Part shown: one piece after another, positions 2,597 through 19,609 of the stretch | How the letters are laid out: each line of letters opens with the position of its first letter | Position numbering within the stretch: position 1 is the first letter of the stretch | Assembly (NCBI GenBank): GCA_024275165.1 | Contig: JAJRZQ010000011.1 | Span: 1-31,656 of the forward strand | Reading direction: 5' to 3' | Origin: a bacterium | GTDB lineage: Bacteria; SAR324; XYD2-FULL-50-16 | Length of the DNA: 31,656 nucleotides | Notes under the pieces: model-generated | The model's database searches: none | What the model was told of the DNA's origin: nothing | The model's input: only the letters and a program-made list of their open reading frames with translations | Made by a program: the position numbers and the translations under genes

Positions 2597-4768
2597 TTGA
2601 ATTTTCCTTTTTATCTGCCCTGCCCTAGAGGGACGGCAGAACTCCTCTGCCAAGAACTGCTCGACCTCGGTCTCAAGGCCAAGCAAAAGGGCTCTGGCTG
2701 TGAAGTAGAAGGAGGGTTGGCAGCGGGCTATACAGCCTGCCTGCACTCCTTTATCGCCAACCGTGTGTTCTTGCCCTTAAGCGAGTTCCCCGCCGCCACC
2801 CCTGAAGAGCTTTACGAGGGGGTAAAACGCATCCCCTGGGAAAAGCACCTTGACGCCCAGGCCAGCCTGGCCATTGAAGCGGATTTAAGCGACTCGAACC
2901 TCACCCACAGTCATTTCGCGGCCCTCAAAAGCAAAGACGCGTTGGTCGATTATTTCAGAGAAAAAACAGGGCAGCGGCCTCGCATTGAAAAAAAAGACCC
3001 GGATATTCGCCTGCACCTATTTATTCATCAAAATCAAGCTCGCTTGAGCCTCGATTTTTCTGGACATAGCTTGCACTTTCGGGGATACCGCCCCAAAGGG
3101 GTAGACGCGCCCTTAAAAGAAAACCTCGCCGCCGCCCTCCTCTTTAAAATGGGTTGGCCTCAACTGGCTCAAGCCGGGGCAGCTTTTATCGACCCCTTTT
3201 GCGGCTCGGGAACCCTCTGCATCGAAGCCTACATGATTGCCGCCAAGCTACCCCCTGCTTGGGGCCGGGTTCATTGGGGCTTTCAGCGCTGGAAGGGGCA
3301 TGATGAATCCCTCTGGCAAAAAACACGCCTCCAGGCGAAGCAAAAAATCAAACTTCTCCCCTATCCTATTTTAGGCCTGGACATCAACCCCCTAGCTCTC
3401 AGGCAGGCTCGTGCCAGTGCCGATGCCCTGGGGATTAGCGGAAAACTGAGCTTTGAGCGAGAAGCAGCGGAAGAATTTCGCCTCCCCCAAAAAATGCGCC
3501 AAATGAAGGGTCTCATCTTAGGAAATCCCCCCTATGGGGAGCGGCTGGGGGATGAAGAAGACCTGTTTCACCTGCACCAAAGCTTAGGCCAGGCTTTAAA
3601 AAGTTCGGCCCAGGGCTGGCGTTTTGGCCTTTTTACCCCTAGAGAAGACCTCGCCTTCGCCTTAGGGATACGGGCCGATAAATCCAACCGCTTTTACAAC
3701 GGGGCCATTGAGTGTCGGCTTTTTCAGTTCACGATTGACCCCTCCCGCGAACTCAAAGAAAAAAACAAGCTTCAGCCGCCTCGCTTTTGGACAGGGCACA
3801 CGCCAAGCCCCGAAGCAACCGCCTTAGCCAATCGGTTAAGGAAAAACCTAAAAAAACTCAAAACCTGGAAAACCCAAAACAAGATAGAATGTTATCGCCT
3901 CTACAACAAAGACCTGCCTGAATACAGCTTTGCCCTGGATATTTATGGAAAAGATTGCCTCGCCTTTGAATACGAGCCCCCCCCAGAAATCGACCCCAGC
4001 ACCGCCAAAGGGCGTCGATACGACTTTTTAGCCAGCCTAGCCCCTGCCTTGGGGTTCACAGCGGAAAACATTTTTTACAAAGAGCGCAAAAGCCAAAAGG
4101 GCCGGGGGCAATACGAAAAAAACCAGGAGTGGAGTGAGAAACGAACCGTTACCGAAGGGGGGTTGCGCTTTGAGATCGACCTCCTCCGCTACCTCGATAC
4201 GGGCTTGTTTTTAGACAGCCGCAGCATTCGCCAGTGGATTTTTCAAGAGGCAAAGGGCAAGCGCTTTTTAAACCTCTTCAGCTATAGCTGTACCGCCAGC
4301 GTTTACGCCACTGCCGGGGGTGCCGCCCAATGTGTCAGCCTCGACTTAAACCCCCATTATCTGGAATGGGGCCAACGAAATTTTACCTTAAACCACCTCG
4401 ACCCCCATCGACACGCCTTCATTGCGACCGATGTCTTGACTTGGCTCAACAGTGCCCAAGGCGGCTATGATTTGATCTTGCTCGACCCGCCCAGCTTTTC
4501 CAATTCCAAAAAAATGCAAAAAAATCTGGACATTCAAACCGACCACCCCCGCCTCATCCAAGCAGCGGCCAATCTGCTCACCGAGCAGGGAAAACTCTAT
4601 TTTATGACCAACAAACGGGGATTCAAACTGAAAAACGAGGCCCTCAAAGGGCTAAGAACAATCCAACGAAAAGACAGCCTTCCCCTAGACTTTCAAGGGG
4701 GCAGGCCCATCCATCAACTTTGGGAAATCACTCGAAGTCTAGGGGCCGGGCCGCCTAATACTCGATAA
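2597..4768 (+). CDS. rlmL: Bifunctional 23S rRNA guanine methyltransferase RlmKL
   Basis: A 723-residue fusion, close to the 702 residues of E. coli RlmL (RlmKL), which makes m2G2445 and m7G2069 in 23S rRNA. The N-terminal part (about 1-160) is a THUMP-type RNA-binding region. The first Rossmann methyltransferase has a SAM loop at residues 199-206 (DPFCGSGT) and the N2-guanine motif NPPYGERL at 310-317. The second has a SAM region near 570-600 (FLNLFSYSCTASVYA) and LDPPSFSNS at 629-637. The start is a TTG placed 3 nt after the rhodanese stop; the next residues NFPFYLPCPRGTAELL match the family N-terminus, so this start is likely. The 3' end overlaps the convergent diiron gene by 14 nt. An eight-C run lies at 3977-3984. 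Confidence 0.93.
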   Translation: MNFPFYLPCPRGTAELLCQELLDLGLKAKQKGSGCEVEGGLAAGYTACLHSFIANRVFLPLSEFPAATPEELYEGVKRIPWEKHLDAQASLAIEADLSDSNLTHSHFAALKSKDALVDYFREKTGQRPRIEKKDPDIRLHLFIHQNQARLSLDFSGHSLHFRGYRPKGVDAPLKENLAAALLFKMGWPQLAQAGAAFIDPFCGSGTLCIEAYMIAAKLPPAWGRVHWGFQRWKGHDESLWQKTRLQAKQKIKLLPYPILGLDINPLALRQARASADALGISGKLSFEREAAEEFRLPQKMRQMKGLILGNPPYGERLGDEEDLFHLHQSLGQALKSSAQGWRFGLFTPREDLAFALGIRADKSNRFYNGAIECRLFQFTIDPSRELKEKNKLQPPRFWTGHTPSPEATALANRLRKNLKKLKTWKTQNKIECYRLYNKDLPEYSFALDIYGKDCLAFEYEPPPEIDPSTAKGRRYDFLASLAPALGFTAENIFYKERKSQKGRGQYEKNQEWSEKRTVTEGGLRFEIDLLRYLDTGLFLDSRSIRQWIFQEAKGKRFLNLFSYSCTASVYATAGGAAQCVSLDLNPHYLEWGQRNFTLNHLDPHRHAFIATDVLTWLNSAQGGYDLILLDPPSFSNSKKMQKNLDIQTDHPRLIQAAANLLTEQGKLYFMTNKRGFKLKNEALKGLRTIQRKDSLPLDFQGGRPIHQLWEITRSLGAGPPNTR

Positions 4769-5492
4769 TCCCCACCCGCAGGTTGTAGAGCCAATCCAAA
4801 AAGGTTTCCACCATCGCCCCTTCGTAGATCAAGCCATGCTGAGGGCACAAGAAGTCGATCCCTAGATTTTTTACCCTCTCGCACCATTGGTTTTTATGCT
4901 CGTTGCTGCCAAACCACCGTTTGTGAAAGCCTTCGATATGCTGAATGTGTTTGTCGAAATCACGCACCACAAAGTCTTTTGCGTTGCTAATCAGGCCCGC
5001 GCCGGTATCCCCGGTAAACAACACCTTGGCAACGGGGTCGTAGAGGTGAAAATTCCCCGAAGAATGCATAAAGTGGGCAGGGATGACTTGTAAATCCAAT
5101 CCATTGAGGTTTAAGATGGTTCCCTCATCATGCAGGGGAATGAAATTCGCCTTTTGCCCCCCAAAATGCAGCATAAAACTAATCCAAATCGAGGGAAGGT
5201 ACACCTGAATATTCGGTTTCATCATCAGCCACAAGGCAATGGCGCTGAAGATATCCGGGTCTTGGTGAGTACAAAAAACCTGATCTATCTTTTTGATGTC
5301 CACCACCTCGCCCAAGGCGCTGATCACCTCGGGAAAGGTTTCGGTACCCCCCGGATCGGTCATCAGGTATTTGTCGTTGTGTTGAACCAAATATTCATTG
5401 GTCGCCACCAGGTGATTTGCCTTTACATCGTCAAAATAAAAAATCGTCCAGCGATGGCCGCCCTGCTCAAATAGAGTCGCGTACTTTTTCAT
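4755..5492 (-). CDS. Stand-alone diiron beta-lactamase-fold protein, ODP/flavodiiron-like (copy 2)
   Basis: A 245-residue metallo-beta-lactamase-fold protein. Metal ligands fall at flavodiiron spacing: H76-x-D78-x-D80 (THQDPDIF), H143, D162 (GDTG) and H219 (CPQHG). Compared with the flavodiiron motif HxExDH, Glu is Asp and the trailing His is Ile81. The flavodoxin domain of true flavodiiron proteins is absent, as in the stand-alone oxygen-binding diiron protein (ODP) family described in Treponema chemotaxis. That family binds or senses O2; reductase activity without a flavodoxin partner is doubtful. The gene is last in a three-gene minus-strand operon, and its ATG lies 1 nt after the stop of the upstream paralogue. 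Both copies share the same N-terminal plan and the block RWFGSNxHKNxWCE. Family assignment is strong; the sensing role is inferred from context. Confidence 0.85.
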   Translation of the reverse strand: MKKYATLFEQGGHRWTIFYFDDVKANHLVATNEYLVQHNDKYLMTDPGGTETFPEVISALGEVVDIKKIDQVFCTHQDPDIFSAIALWLMMKPNIQVYLPSIWISFMLHFGGQKANFIPLHDEGTILNLNGLDLQVIPAHFMHSSGNFHLYDPVAKVLFTGDTGAGLISNAKDFVVRDFDKHIQHIEGFHKRWFGSNEHKNQWCERVKNLGIDFLCPQHGLIYEGAMVETFLDWLYNLRVGIIEY

Positions 5493-5493
5493 A

Positions 5494-6243
5494 TCATTTC
5501 ACCCTATTTCGGGTCGTACCTACATTAAGCTTATGCAGCCAATCGACAAACTGCCAAACCTGTTCCCCCACATAAATCGCCCCATGCTGGGGGCAAAGGA
5601 TCTCAATCTCTAATTCTTGCACCTTTTCGCACCAGTTGTTTTTATGTCCGTTGCTGCCAAACCACCGACGGTGAAAGGGCTCGATAAAGGGAATATGGGC
5701 CTCAAAATCGTCAATGAAAAGATAGCGGTTCTCATCGGGTAAAATAGCGGCACCGGTATCCCCGCTAAAATAGATTTTCGAACTGGGATCATAAAGATGC
5801 AGGTTGCCCGCCGAATGCATATGATGGGCAGGAACCGCGATAAGCTTAAGCCCGTTGTGATTGAGCTCCATCCCCTTATCGGGAATGGAGATAAAGGTAT
5901 TCTCATCCCCCCCAAAGTGAGGCATAAAACTCGACCAGAGCCAAGAAACATGACACTGCAATTCCGGTACGATTTCCTGCCATAAAGAAAAATTACTCGC
6001 AATATCCGGGTCTTGATGGCTTGAAAAAACTCCGGAAATCTCTTGGGGGTCGATGACCTGGACCAAGCTTGCCAACACGGTGGGGAAAATCTCAAACCCG
6101 CCTGGGTCGAGCAGAAAATGCTTCCCCTTATGGGTAATGACATACTCGTTTGAATCAATAAGCCCCTCTTTTTTATCGGGGTCACGGTGCAATACGATCC
6201 AGCGGTAATCCTCCTGCTCAAACAGGACATGGATTTTCTTCAT
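5494..6243 (-). CDS. Stand-alone diiron beta-lactamase-fold protein, ODP/flavodiiron-like (copy 1)
   Basis: A 249-residue paralogue of the downstream gene with the same ligand set: H76, D78, D80, H143, D162 and H220, and Ile81 where flavodiiron enzymes often have His. LLDPGGFEIFP near 44-54 and GDTG at 161-164 mark the beta-lactamase fold. There is no flavodoxin domain, signal peptide or membrane segment, so it is cytoplasmic. A good ribosome site (GAGGAAA) sits just before its ATG, inside the end of the upstream gene, and the two reading frames overlap by 4 nt (ATGA), which suggests coupled translation and fixed stoichiometry. Two ODP-like paralogues side by side suggest a heteromer or two sensors with different affinity; this is inference. 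Confidence 0.86.
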   Translation of the reverse strand: MKKIHVLFEQEDYRWIVLHRDPDKKEGLIDSNEYVITHKGKHFLLDPGGFEIFPTVLASLVQVIDPQEISGVFSSHQDPDIASNFSLWQEIVPELQCHVSWLWSSFMPHFGGDENTFISIPDKGMELNHNGLKLIAVPAHHMHSAGNLHLYDPSSKIYFSGDTGAAILPDENRYLFIDDFEAHIPFIEPFHRRWFGSNGHKNNWCEKVQELEIEILCPQHGAIYVGEQVWQFVDWLHKLNVGTTRNRVK

Positions 6244-6869
6244 TCGATTTCCTCGGATTGAATATTGGCAAAGAGGTTTGTAATCACCCCAAACTCAATA
6301 TTGATCGACTCTAAAAGCACAAACAGCCGCTCAATAGAGGCCTGCATCGTTTCGGTGATGATCCTAAATTTTTCCTCACTGCCCACGATATAAACCGCTT
6401 TAATCTTCCCCCCAATGGCCATGGTTTTACCAATGTTCACCAACTGAATCAACGAGTCCAAACCGCGCGCCATTTGAGCGGTATTTCGTTTTAACAAGGA
6501 AATATCAAAATGAGAGATCAATTCCCCAATCTTAAAGACATAAAGAGCCATTTCCTGCTGTTGCTTATAGGCACGCTGAAAAAGGCGATAAAAACGCGAT
6601 TGGGTTAAGAGTTGGCCATAGGCCTTGGTGGTCTCATCGAGACAAACAAAAGCCTGCTCTCGCCCACGGTGAGCGCTCTCGGTAACATCATTGCTCATCA
6701 CTTGGATTTCGCTAGAGAGCTTTAAAAAGGAGTCGTTATTGGCCTGTTTCGAGGCAATGCCCGCGTTAATGGCGATAAATTCCAAACTGGCGCATTCTTC
6801 GACCAGTTCAACATATTGAGCCGCAATCTTGACATAGCTCTGAGAGGCTTGTTTCAGTTCGTCCAGCAT
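6240..6869 (-). CDS. Small all-helical protein resembling a chemoreceptor signalling tip
   Basis: A 209-residue soluble protein with no signal peptide or membrane helix; almost all of it looks alpha-helical. Residues 28-66 (LEFIAINAGIASKQANND, then LSSEIQVMSNDVTESA) follow the pattern of the chemoreceptor hairpin tip, normally QTNLLALNAAIEAARAGE followed by FAVVAEEVRNLA. A weaker second copy of the pattern may occur at about 143-185 (IGKTMAIGGKIKAV, then EKFRIITETMQASIERL). It lacks the Gln/Glu-rich methylation helices and any sensor domain. It is first in the operon with two ODP-like diiron proteins and overlaps the next gene by 4 nt. It may be a minimal receptor or adaptor that passes the diiron signal to CheA/CheW. 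The family is not one I can name, and the receptor likeness is by eye. Confidence 0.6.
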   Translation of the reverse strand: MLDELKQASQSYVKIAAQYVELVEECASLEFIAINAGIASKQANNDSFLKLSSEIQVMSNDVTESAHRGREQAFVCLDETTKAYGQLLTQSRFYRLFQRAYKQQQEMALYVFKIGELISHFDISLLKRNTAQMARGLDSLIQLVNIGKTMAIGGKIKAVYIVGSEEKFRIITETMQASIERLFVLLESINIEFGVITNLFANIQSEEIE

Positions 6870-10784: not shown

Positions 10785-13625
10785 TTATGACTTTTTGAGG
10801 GGCAAGACCCTCACGGTCAACACCTCTTCCATATCCGCCGCCTTTAAGGGCTTACTAAAAAAATAGCCCTGCACAAAAAGGCAACCCATGGCGGCTAGAC
10901 AAGCGCGTTGCCCCTCGGTTTCCACCCCTTCTGCCAAAACCTGCAAATTCAAGCCCAAGCCTAAGCTCACCACCGCTTTAGCGATGCTCGCGTCCTCTTC
11001 CACATGAGCCACAAAGGCTTGATCAATCTTCAATTCATGGAGGGGAAAACGGTTGAGATAACTTAAGGAAGAATACCCTGTACCAAAATCATCCACAGAG
11101 GTCACCACCCCCATATGGCGCAGATCGGTGAGAATATCGACCGCCTTGTCGACCTCCTGCATCAAGATTCCTTCGGTCAATTCAACCCGTAACAGATGCG
11201 CGGGCAAGCCCGTCTCCGCCAAGGTTTTTTTAATCAACCCATAAACATCATCGCGCTGAAACTGGCGCACCGAAAAATTCACCGCCACCGGCACGGGGTT
11301 GAGCCCTGCGTCCAACCATCGTTTTGTTTGCAGGCATACCTCGTTGAGCACCCAAGCCCCCAAAGGCACAATCAAACCCGATTCTTCGGCAATGGAGATA
11401 AATTCCAAGGGAGAAATCATCCCTTCTTTAGGGTGTATCCAGCGCACCAAAGCCTCCGCCCCCGTGATCCCCCCGCTTTCGATATCCACCTGAGGCTGAT
11501 ACAGCACATGAAACTCGTTGTTTTCCAAGGCGTGATGCAGTTCGGCAACGCGGTTGATTTTAATCTTGGCATTGGCTTCCATATGCGATTTGTAAAAACT
11601 GACCTGTCCCTTGCCCCGCTCTTTGGAGTGATACATCGCCGTATCCCCCATTTTTAAAAGCTCATTCGCGTTCTCCCCGTCTTCTGGGTAAAAGCTTACC
11701 CCAATGCTGCCGTTGATAAAAACCTCTTGCCCCCTAATCTGGATCGGCTGGCTCAGCCTGCGGTTGATCTCTTCGCCCACCTGCATGGCATAACCGGGCT
11801 CGCTCAACTTAAACAAAGCGAGAACGAATTCATCCCCCCCCAAACGGCTCACCAAATCGGATTCACGCACCGCGTTCCTTAAAATACGGCTCACTGTTTT
11901 TAACAACTCGTCTCCCGCCGCATGCCCCAAGGAATCGTTTACATTTTTAAAATCATCAATATCCACAAAGAGCAAAGCGACTCTTTGTTGCTCCCTCTTG
12001 GCAAGCTTAATCGCCTGATCGAGTTGCTCCAAAAAATACAACCGATTCGGCAAACCCGTTAAGGCGTCATAATAGGCCATCAAGCGCAGTTCGTATTCCG
12101 TGTTCTTTAATTGACTGATATCGGTAAAGGTACCCAGAAAATAGGTTTTCTGCCTGGATTCATCCAAAAAGCGGGTGATGGATAATAGTTTCGGGTAAAG
12201 CTCCCCGTTTTTTCTGCGATCCCAGATTTCCCCCTTCCATTGCCCATGATCTTGAATACTTTTCCACATCTTAGCGTAAAAAGCGGTATCGTGACGCCCG
12301 GAGGAAAGGATATGCGGGTCCATGCCCAATACTTCTTCATGGGTATAGCCGCTAATCCGCTCAAAGGCCGGATTGGTTTCGATAATTTTATTTTCCTCAT
12401 TGATAATGACAATGGCTTCACTGGCGTTTTGAAACACCTTGGCCAACAGGCGAATGCGTTGATTTTGCTCTACTCTTTCTGTAATATCCTGCACGATCCC
12501 GAGCATTTTTTGCGGTTCCGTTTGCGAGTTGAACAAGACTTCGCCCTGCTCTTGCACCGTACGAACTTCACCCGTATCTTGGCGTATCACGCGATGCTCT
12601 ACCAAATAGGGTTTCTCGCCTTTTAAGGCCGCAGCTACCCGCTCTTTCACCAGCGCTTGATCTTCAGGGGGAATCACCTGCAAAAAATGCTCATAGGTCG
12701 CTTCAAACCGCTCCGGATCCGCGCCAAAAATTTTGTATATTTCCTTTGACCATTTCAATTCCCCCGTAGCCATGTTCCATTCCCAACTCCCCATCTTGCC
12801 CACTGCTTGGGCTTGATCCAGCCCTTCCATGCTTTTTCTTAAAGCCTGTTCCCTCTCCAAGTTTTGTCTGGACATTTCCTCAATCGCTCTCGCCAACACC
12901 CCCAATTCATCCGACCCGGTCACCTGGGTACTCGCTTCCTTTCCGTTCACAATGGCCTGAATCGCCACCACTAGACGCTCAGCCCTTGCGGTAATTAAAA
13001 AATGCAACCCCACCCCAAACAACAAGGTGAACAAACCCACCAGGCCTGAAAACTGCCAAAACTGTGCTTCTAAGGCACTATAAGCCTGCTCTTTCATGGC
13101 CTTAAGATCATAAAACAAAACGAGGTAACCGGTCCGGTAGGAGCGCAGAGAGCACTGTTTTTTAGGCAGTGGAATGGGCACCACGGCATAGATCGAGTTT
13201 CCCTCGTTCACCAAGGAAAATTGCGCTTGCAGACTCTTTAGGGCTTGTTCCATCAGCCTTAGATTGCCCTGTTCAAAATGGGGGTGATTCTGTTGGAGGT
13301 GTTCTATAAAGGGCTGGCCGATATCCCGTTTTTCCAGGGCCGAGACGACGCGCCCCCGCTCGTCAACCAGGTAAACATCGCGCATATTCGCGTCCACCCC
13401 GGCCTCGACAATCTCTTCTTCAATCCAGCGCTCATCCCCCTTCGCCAATGCGTGTTCCAAGGTTCGCTGCAATTGATTCGCTCTCAGACGCATGCGATTC
13501 AACCCCTGGGATTCAGCATATTGATCACTCTGCCCTTTGACCCAAGTGAGATTATACAAGCTGATCAACAAGATAAAAACAATCAAAAACAAAGGGATAA
13601 GCCAGCGCAGAGAGATGATTTTCAT
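10785..13625 (-). CDS. Membrane PAS-PAS-GGDEF-EAL cyclic-di-GMP enzyme
   Basis: 946 residues. TM1 is at about 7-28, followed by a periplasmic domain of roughly 160 residues with DANMRDVYLVDERGRVVS (dCACHE/sCACHE-like), TM2 at about 188-212 and a HAMP-like linker. PAS1 spans about 270-385, PAS2 about 390-505, then GGDEF and EAL. The GGDEF site is RLGGDEFVL near residue 594, preceded by an RxxD inhibitory site five residues upstream (RESD). The EAL domain has GAEALVRW near 723 and DDFGTGYSSLSYL, with KIDQAFV further on. Both catalytic motifs look intact, so it may make or break c-di-GMP depending on signal. The ATG overlaps the stop of the upstream binding-protein gene by 4 nt, which suggests that the lipoprotein delivers the periplasmic signal. 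Confidence 0.92.
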   Translation of the reverse strand: MKIISLRWLIPLFLIVFILLISLYNLTWVKGQSDQYAESQGLNRMRLRANQLQRTLEHALAKGDERWIEEEIVEAGVDANMRDVYLVDERGRVVSALEKRDIGQPFIEHLQQNHPHFEQGNLRLMEQALKSLQAQFSLVNEGNSIYAVVPIPLPKKQCSLRSYRTGYLVLFYDLKAMKEQAYSALEAQFWQFSGLVGLFTLLFGVGLHFLITARAERLVVAIQAIVNGKEASTQVTGSDELGVLARAIEEMSRQNLEREQALRKSMEGLDQAQAVGKMGSWEWNMATGELKWSKEIYKIFGADPERFEATYEHFLQVIPPEDQALVKERVAAALKGEKPYLVEHRVIRQDTGEVRTVQEQGEVLFNSQTEPQKMLGIVQDITERVEQNQRIRLLAKVFQNASEAIVIINEENKIIETNPAFERISGYTHEEVLGMDPHILSSGRHDTAFYAKMWKSIQDHGQWKGEIWDRRKNGELYPKLLSITRFLDESRQKTYFLGTFTDISQLKNTEYELRLMAYYDALTGLPNRLYFLEQLDQAIKLAKREQQRVALLFVDIDDFKNVNDSLGHAAGDELLKTVSRILRNAVRESDLVSRLGGDEFVLALFKLSEPGYAMQVGEEINRRLSQPIQIRGQEVFINGSIGVSFYPEDGENANELLKMGDTAMYHSKERGKGQVSFYKSHMEANAKIKINRVAELHHALENNEFHVLYQPQVDIESGGITGAEALVRWIHPKEGMISPLEFISIAEESGLIVPLGAWVLNEVCLQTKRWLDAGLNPVPVAVNFSVRQFQRDDVYGLIKKTLAETGLPAHLLRVELTEGILMQEVDKAVDILTDLRHMGVVTSVDDFGTGYSSLSYLNRFPLHELKIDQAFVAHVEEDASIAKAVVSLGLGLNLQVLAEGVETEGQRACLAAMGCLFVQGYFFSKPLKAADMEEVLTVRVLPLKKS

Positions 13626-17944: not shown

Positions 17945-19609
17945 ATGAGCACTTCCGCCAAACTCAGCATTTCCGTCTTTTTTACTTTTTTTTTCATCGC
18001 CCTTTTTGGTGGCTTGGCCCTGTACAGCCTCCAGGAATTGCAAGCAACGCATGATACCTTTATGCGGGATTTGCGGCAAACCCTCGCGTCGGGTACCGAC
18101 GAGGCGCCTGCTTTAGCCGCCTTAGCCGAAAAACAAGCCGCCACCTTTATCGCAGACAGTGAAAGTGCCTCATCCTACATCATTTCAGGCCTTTTCCTAC
18201 TTGCGGTGAGCTTGACGGGAATTTTCTTTTACATCTCCAAACAGCTCTTGACTCCCCTTAAAAACTGCGCGACCAGTCTCGATGACCTGATCGCCGGGCA
18301 ATGGAGGGGGAAAAACCTAGATCAAGGTACCACAGAAATCCAAGGCATGGGAAAGCGTTTTTACGAATACGCCAACAAGGTCAATGCGATTGTCAATAAC
18401 CTACGCGAGCAGGCCATACGCCTCGATCTTTCTTCCAAGGTCTTTTCGATCAACGCCAAATGCATCTCCAACAATACCGACCGCATCGAACAAAACAGCC
18501 AAAAAAACTTCAACTCCATCACCCAGTCTTCAACCGCCTTAAACGAGATTGCCGCCACCACCAAGGAAATCGGAACCCAGCTTGAGCAAATGGACCAAAT
18601 GACCCGCAACGCGGAAGAAAAGACGACCGCGGGGAGCCGTAGCGTAGAGCTGGCGATCAACACCATGAGCTCCATTGAAAAAGGCAGCAAGGAGATCAGC
18701 CGCATCGTCACCACGATCAGCGAAATCGCCAACCAAACCAACCTGCTCAGTTTAAACGCCGCCATTGAGTCGGCCAAAGCGGGGGAGCAGGGTAAGGGCT
18801 TCGCGGTGGTCGCCGAAGAGGTACGCAACCTAGCCCAACGCAGCAACGGCGCGGCGAGTGAGATTTATCAACTCATCGACGCGAGCCAAAAAGAAGTGGC
18901 CCAGGGGGCCAAGGTCGTTAATCAAGTGGGCGAGGACTTAACCGAAATCGTCAATCAAGTCCGAGAAATCTCCCACCAGATGACCACCTTGAATCAGAGC
19001 ATGGAACAGCAAGAAATGGGCATTGATGAAATCGCCCTGATGACCCACGCGATCAGTGAATCCTCCGAAACCAACTTAGCCTATGTCGCCGAGTTGCAGC
19101 ATGTGGTTTCCGCCAGTCTATCCGGCACCCGCACCCTCGACAACGCGGCCCAATACCTGGACGAAATTATCGATCGTTTATCCATTACTCCACTCAAGGC
19201 CTTTACAGAACTCATCCAATGGGGCCCCGAATTCAGCGTAGGGATACAAGAAATCGACTACCAGCACAAGGTGCTCGTACGCCTGATCAATGTCATTCAT
19301 CAGGCCGATCAGGAAGGCAAAAAAATCACCGATTTTGAAGACCTTTTAGAAACCCTAGTCAATTACACCATCGCTCACTTCAACTATGAAGAAGACTTAA
19401 TGGAAAAGGTGGGATACGCAAACATCGGCCCCCACAAAGCCATTCACAAAGAGTTTCTCAAAGGAGTGGGCGAATTTTTAGCCGACTTCCGCGCAGGAAG
19501 AACCTCGGTGGAACAACTCATGGAAATTTTAAAAAAATGGTTGGTCAACCACATCCAAAAAACAGATACAGAATACACAGAACCGGCGCACCAGGCAGGA
19601 ATTCGCTAA
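17945..19609 (+). CDS. Chemoreceptor with C-terminal hemerythrin domain
   Basis: 554 residues. TM1 is at about 10-28, with a short periplasmic loop of some 50 residues, TM2 at about 77-99 and a HAMP-like region. The chemoreceptor hairpin tip is at about 260-298 (EIANQTNLLSLNAAIESAKA, then GFAVVAEEVRNLAQR). From about 424 a bacteriohemerythrin follows with the full diiron set: His in DYQHK (441), HFNYEE, HKAIH, and the final HIQKTD. Hemerythrin domains bind O2 at a diiron site, as in the DcrH receptor of Desulfovibrio. The tiny periplasmic loop suggests that the cytoplasmic hemerythrin is the main sensor, probably for aerotaxis. The next gene starts on the last base of its stop codon (TAATG). 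Confidence 0.94.
   Translation: MSTSAKLSISVFFTFFFIALFGGLALYSLQELQATHDTFMRDLRQTLASGTDEAPALAALAEKQAATFIADSESASSYIISGLFLLAVSLTGIFFYISKQLLTPLKNCATSLDDLIAGQWRGKNLDQGTTEIQGMGKRFYEYANKVNAIVNNLREQAIRLDLSSKVFSINAKCISNNTDRIEQNSQKNFNSITQSSTALNEIAATTKEIGTQLEQMDQMTRNAEEKTTAGSRSVELAINTMSSIEKGSKEISRIVTTISEIANQTNLLSLNAAIESAKAGEQGKGFAVVAEEVRNLAQRSNGAASEIYQLIDASQKEVAQGAKVVNQVGEDLTEIVNQVREISHQMTTLNQSMEQQEMGIDEIALMTHAISESSETNLAYVAELQHVVSASLSGTRTLDNAAQYLDEIIDRLSITPLKAFTELIQWGPEFSVGIQEIDYQHKVLVRLINVIHQADQEGKKITDFEDLLETLVNYTIAHFNYEEDLMEKVGYANIGPHKAIHKEFLKGVGEFLADFRAGRTSVEQLMEILKKWLVNHIQKTDTEYTEPAHQAGIR

Follow-up and report, generated by a model that had tools for sequence, protein, structure and literature searches.

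What kind of receptor, if any, is specified by three closely packed genes of an SAR324 bacterium, in which a small helical protein precedes two diiron proteins? The genes lie in a window (the whole stretch of DNA analysed, 31,656 nucleotides) and form a tight minus-strand operon at 4755-6869 in the order 209-aa helical protein, ODP-A, ODP-B. The helical gene overlaps ODP-A by 4 nt (ATGA), and ODP-A and ODP-B are 1 nt apart, so that the ORF coordinates bear out the arrangement described in an earlier, sequence-only reading. That reading had gone on to propose a compact oxygen or peroxide sensor whose receptor part had shrunk to one signalling tip and whose diiron sensor was duplicated. The features concerned are these:

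6240 to 6869, minus strand: partner gene, encoding a 209-aa helical protein, a proposed single-chain receptor-tip pseudo-dimer (ORF; conserved; AF2 model)
5494 to 6243, minus strand: ODP-A, 249 aa, a stand-alone diiron MBL-fold protein (PF19583 8e-68; 6qrq 4e-62; ligands)
4755 to 5492, minus strand: ODP-B, 245 aa, a paralogue of ODP-A, duplicated inside the family (PF19583 2e-67; ligands; sister clades)
6684 to 6797, minus strand: tip 1, residues 25-62 of the partner, ECASLEFIAINAGIASKQANNDSF...SSEIQVMSNDV (tip HMM; PSSM; AF2 turn 43-45; orthologue conservation)
6336 to 6443, minus strand: putative tip 2, residues 143-178 of the partner, LVNIGKTMAIGGKIKAVYIVGSEEKFRIITETMQAS (PSSM rank; AF2 turn 159-164; MAFFT alignment)

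By profile and structure-sequence searches, both diiron proteins are genuine ODPs. The Pfam ODP profile PF19583 matches ODP-B at 2e-67 and ODP-A at 8e-68 (227-228 bits against a cut-off of 27.2, with profile positions 1-194 covered), and ODP-A matches the solved ODP structures 6qrq/6qwo (4e-62) and 6qnm/6r9n (9e-62), so the family assignment made earlier holds at E~1e-67 for Pfam and E~1e-62 for solved structures. All six diiron ligands are kept in both proteins (H76, D78, D80, H143, D162 and H220 in ODP-A or H219 in ODP-B), at the flavodiiron-spaced positions that had been claimed for them. In the window ODPs Asp replaces the flavodiiron Glu, and Ile the flavodiiron His that follows (other ODPs examined have I, V or L there), giving the motif HQDPDI where flavodiiron proteins have HxExDH. 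The C-terminal flavodoxin domain of flavodiiron proteins is also absent, as had been noted, since lengths of 245-249 aa leave no room for it. The two ODPs are indeed paralogues, 49.6% identical and placed as sister clades in the tree described below. A convergent gene for an RlmKL-like methyltransferase ends within the 3' end of ODP-B, overlapping it by 14 nt (window 4755-4768).

Searches of Pfam, NCBIfam and PDB sequences with the helical protein gave no usable match, and Pfam reported no PF00015 (MCPsignal) domain in it. Matches to mCpol (0.15 and 0.011) covered a short C-terminal stretch far below the cut-off and were disregarded, and no relatives were found in the viral contigs searched. 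Orthologues with 70-71% identity occur in three other genera of the SAR324 (Lambdaproteobacteria) family, making four genera in all. Two of these genomes (G002 and G004) carry both ODPs in the same order as the window beside a helical protein about 70% identical, and the trio is thus more than a chance association. In a third (G001) the helical gene is followed by ODP-A, which runs into the contig end, and ODP-B ends another contig. Conservation of the pairing thus extends well beyond the window genome. The most conserved stretches of the helical protein are about residues 24-56, nearly invariant in the orthologues, and 140-176.

An AlphaFold (AF2) model based on the four orthologues has helices at 2-42, 46-101, 105-119, 124-158 and 165-201 (pLDDT 87.9, pTM 0.81). 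It predicts a single-chain four-helix bundle with hairpin turns at 43-45 and 159-164, where two chemoreceptor-tip motifs lie. With VIA-align the model fits a single-chain four-helix bundle over 177 residues at 2.1 A, which puts both turns at one end of the model. Foldseek searches with this model and that of a relative, L033, returned mostly generic helical bundles, a result that weighs neither for nor against an MCP fold.

Tip 1 of the window protein is convincing. The first predicted turn lies within FIAINAGIASKQANNDSF, N35 occupies the place of the MCP tip's conserved Asn, and the loop falls two residues short of the canonical MCP length. With an HMM made from 20 canonical MCP tips, tip 1 scores about 6-10 bits in all four orthologues, against <=4.4 bits for reversed control sequences, and an ungapped tip PSSM that allows for the 2-residue loop deletion gives +5.2 at this register and -9.0 at the next. 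Gln takes the place of the tip Arg that MCPs conserve. For tip 2, the second predicted turn falls within MAIGGKIKAVYIVGSEEKF, the loop length is exactly that of canonical MCPs, MAFFT places the segment against tip 2 of relatives, and the canonical tip PSSM ranks it best of about 175 registers in three of four orthologues and tied in the fourth. Because its score does not exceed the reversed-PSSM maximum and is not significant by sequence alone, tip 2 is proposed from AlphaFold and the homologues. A hairpin with the conserved tip motif is thus indicated for tip 1 by register, Asn and AF2 turn, and for tip 2 by AF2 and rank only. With hhalign, no repeat relating one half of the window protein to the other was detectable, and comparisons of the window family profile with MCPs or with other two-tip proteins were weak (1-12%). 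The link to two-tip proteins consequently draws on operon position, ODP phylogeny, the tip 1 register and the AF2 model. The sequence-only reading was right that the receptor part is tip-like, as the tip 1 HMM and PSSM results indicate, but its single tip gives way to two tip hairpins in one chain, as suggested by the model and by relatives.

Relatives of the partner are easier to recognize as receptor-derived. A helical gene of this kind lies immediately upstream of every ODP found in this clade (19 genomes, from three SAR324 families and two other lineages); in the SAR324 class, among close ODP relatives outside the window family, the upstream gene is a divergent one of 230-275 aa in seven of seven genomes. 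One of these proteins, L033, passes the PF00015 cut-off (6.4e-9, 36.3 bits) in two stretches. Three others reach about 1e-5 (L034 and L032, both at the second tip, and L086), and L031 and L037 reach 0.002 at the first tip. The tip HMM detects both tips in L033, L032, L034 and L063, the last from another lineage and with tips at 22 and 14 bits. When the halves of one set of relatives (f4) were compared with an MCP tip profile by hhalign, they scored 89% and 97%, with the set's own reversed controls below 1% and all reversed controls below 4%. The AF2 model of L033 has helix breaks at both tips, at lower confidence (pLDDT 75, pTM 0.63). In relatives, then, profile comparison establishes that the partner is homologous to MCP tips, and the earlier suggestion that the partner is receptor-tip-like survives, with tip 1 passing its tests and L033 above the Pfam threshold.

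Gene neighborhoods place several of these pairs in chemotaxis operons. One operon (G384) reads CheZ-CheA-two-tip (PF00015 1.8e-5)-ODP-MCP/CZB-MCP-CheV, and in the class of G398 the order two-tip-ODP-mini-MCP-CheA occurs in all six genomes with such an ODP, the second tip there having been seen by eye and not by HMM. Two-tip/ODP pairs in relatives are accordingly linked to CheA. The mini-MCPs between ODP and CheA in this class, of about 120-146 aa, consist of little beyond one canonical tip hairpin (L094 3753-4124 in G398; L102 2173-2535; L104 1037-1429; L105 2160-2537; L106 2169-2606), and two such hairpins come close to the length of a two-tip chain, about 211-224 aa. In a tree of 53 ODPs, all 21 with two-tip partners form one group (support 79/93), and support rises to 100/99 when one ODP is added whose upstream gene, similarly placed, is a canonical MCP. 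Beyond the window family, the ODP nearest to those of the window comes from the G384 che operon (97/91), and the split between ODP-A and ODP-B falls inside the window family. Other ODP clades sit beside canonical soluble MCPs (about 95-115 bits), histidine kinases, GGDEF or Roadblock/HD-GYP genes, these domain names having been read from the sequences, part of which were scanned. Among them, ODPs at L093/L091 (G401), L062 and L064 adjoin Roadblock-like and HD-GYP-like genes; in G401 the Roadblock-like gene is flanked by two tandem ODPs. A SAR324 relative encodes a 666-aa ODP fusion with a long C-terminal GGDEF-like and receiver-like part (L040 130-2130, minus strand).

The two-tip appearance of the partner, together with the same pairing in chemotaxis operons of distant bacteria, suggests that the trio is probably a stripped-down oxygen receptor of undescribed build. 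Specifically, we assign a probability of about two in three to the reading that it is a module feeding O2/iron input into chemosensory arrays, with a one-chain, two-tip pseudo-dimer standing in for the homodimeric receptor and with a duplicated sensor. The compact sensor proposed earlier is thus partly upheld by the tip-like partner, the conserved pairing and the relatives inside CheA operons, and is amended from one tip to two. Under our reading the trio would be cytoplasmic, and the diiron sites of ODP-A and ODP-B would take up iron and O2, as in characterised homologues. The two ODPs would signal through the 209-aa partner by altering its bundle; the partner would be a diverged chemoreceptor signalling region that lacks sensor, membrane and long adaptation segments. 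Placed next to each other in one chain, two receptor-tip hairpins would imitate the tip of a homodimeric receptor and might dock on CheW/CheA or join receptor trimers, thereby biasing kinase activity, with an ODP bound towards the opposite end of the bundle. Having two ODPs may double the sensor, allow an ODP heterodimer to form or provide two affinities. For the window's own diverged partner we infer the same function, as well as the same-end tips, the binding of ODP and CheA/CheW, and the sensed ligand. More tentatively, and just short of favoring it, we suggest a natural single-chain chemoreceptor whose fused tips are free to diverge, one serving kinase/CheW docking and the other contacts with neighbors, with input from one or two diiron proteins.

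Several observations weigh against the input-module reading: no che genes adjoin the operon of the window, the partner has no Pfam MCP domain and reaches 1-12% in profile comparisons, the sequence score of its tip 2 falls short of significance, its tip 1 has Gln for the conserved Arg, and Foldseek finds mostly generic helical bundles. Elsewhere in the window, an MCP with a C-terminal hemerythrin domain is encoded at 17945-19609 on the plus strand (PF00015 2.7e-41, PF01814 7.7e-15) and is a second chemoreceptor of diiron type, probably oxygen-linked, in the same 32 kb. A PAS-GGDEF-EAL protein (10785-13625, minus strand) adjoins genes for an NMT1-like binding protein and a TRAP transporter set. 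The genome as a whole (G000) encodes about 14 MCPs and 4 CheA proteins, and a chemosensory cluster on its contig 29 (L100 5148-13506) includes a 547-aa triple-CheW protein, CheB, CheR, a 636-aa repeat protein and CheA.

Other architectures deserve consideration. DosM, of the F9 systems, resembles the window partner in having two MCP signalling hairpins per chain, no sensor domain and input from another protein, and the partner could be a small double receptor of this kind: two chains would pair into a long rod that carries a tip at either end and the ODP at its middle and that bridges two baseplates or cross-links arrays. In DosM itself the tandem signalling domains sit at opposite ends of a rod (PMC7534058, PMC9321776), the tip-legs-tip order recurs in the partner, and the triple CheW in the CheB-CheR-CheA cluster of the genome is a marker of DosM-type F9 systems. 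However, the AF2 monomer folds back into one bundle, with the short helix 105-119 and turns at its far end; a DosM-like gene was not seen near the triple-CheW cluster; and the two che clusters with two-tip genes that were read show ordinary CheW or CheV and no triple CheW. DosM also has recognisable MCP domains and CheW3 (PMC7534058, PMC9321776), whereas the window chain is short, diverged, modelled with same-end tips and paired with ODP; two PF00015 domains of the DosM type are present as two stretches in L033 and absent from the window protein. We give a DosM-like rod a low but real probability.

Slightly less probable still is a partner that has given up array binding and now serves only as ODP partner or scaffold, for example for metabolic or c-di-GMP output. 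The extreme divergence of the window family, the loss of the canonical tip Arg and the histidine kinase, GGDEF and HD-GYP/Roadblock genes beside other ODP clades would fit such a role, but conservation in the protein is highest in the tip 1 and tip 2 blocks, and the nearest ODP relative from beyond the family sits in a che operon. The MBL fold and distant flavodiiron similarity would suit ODPs that act as enzymes, either hydrolases or detoxifiers of O2, NO or peroxide, beside a helical protein with no relation to receptors. This appears very improbable, because the flavodoxin partner domain is absent, characterised ODPs are sensors (PMC7319448, PMC7666581, PMC6978683), and the operon company of relatives is chemotaxis.

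How much of the proposed single-chain oxygen input module is new can be judged from known ODP systems. As summarised in PMC7319448, Muok et al. (2019) reported that ODP genes share operons with MCP genes, in either of two orders, or with genes for other signalling proteins. In the oxygen/iron sensor pair TDE2498 and TDE2496 of Treponema denticola the receptor is soluble and without transmembrane or sensing modules (PMC7666581). The T. denticola ODP-MCP system and the T. maritima ODP share with the window the ODP family, the diiron ligands and a gene adjoining a soluble receptor (PMC7666581), but the T. denticola partner is an MCP homologue, whereas the window has a two-tip chain of 209 aa and tandem copies of the ODP. 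The ODP-linked MCPs of our survey have one canonical tip, at about 95-115 bits. Small soluble MCPs beside ODP (L053-L061, L065-L067, L073, L090) occupy the same place as the two-tip partner, and that of L067 has the same upstream order and the sister ODP; with one canonical tip per chain, however, they would need a dimer to supply four helices. No description of a short single-chain two-tip receptor with ODP, or of tandem ODPs with it, was found in the open-access papers searched. Among these papers, what is undescribed comes down to the two-tip partner and its tandem ODPs, and for these the earlier remark stands that no described system with two ODPs and so small a partner was known. The coupling of ODP to a receptor was already known from Muok et al., as summarised in PMC7319448 and PMC7666581.

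Chemoreceptors are treated as homodimers, and the two tips of a native dimer therefore cannot be mutated independently. If our reading is correct, a short, soluble one-chain receptor with unequal tips and a separate sensor protein to drive it would allow tip asymmetry and the path from sensor to CheA to be tested in about 450 residues of soluble protein. It would also extend ODP-type oxygen sensing, as predicted here from sequence comparison, to SAR324 bacteria.
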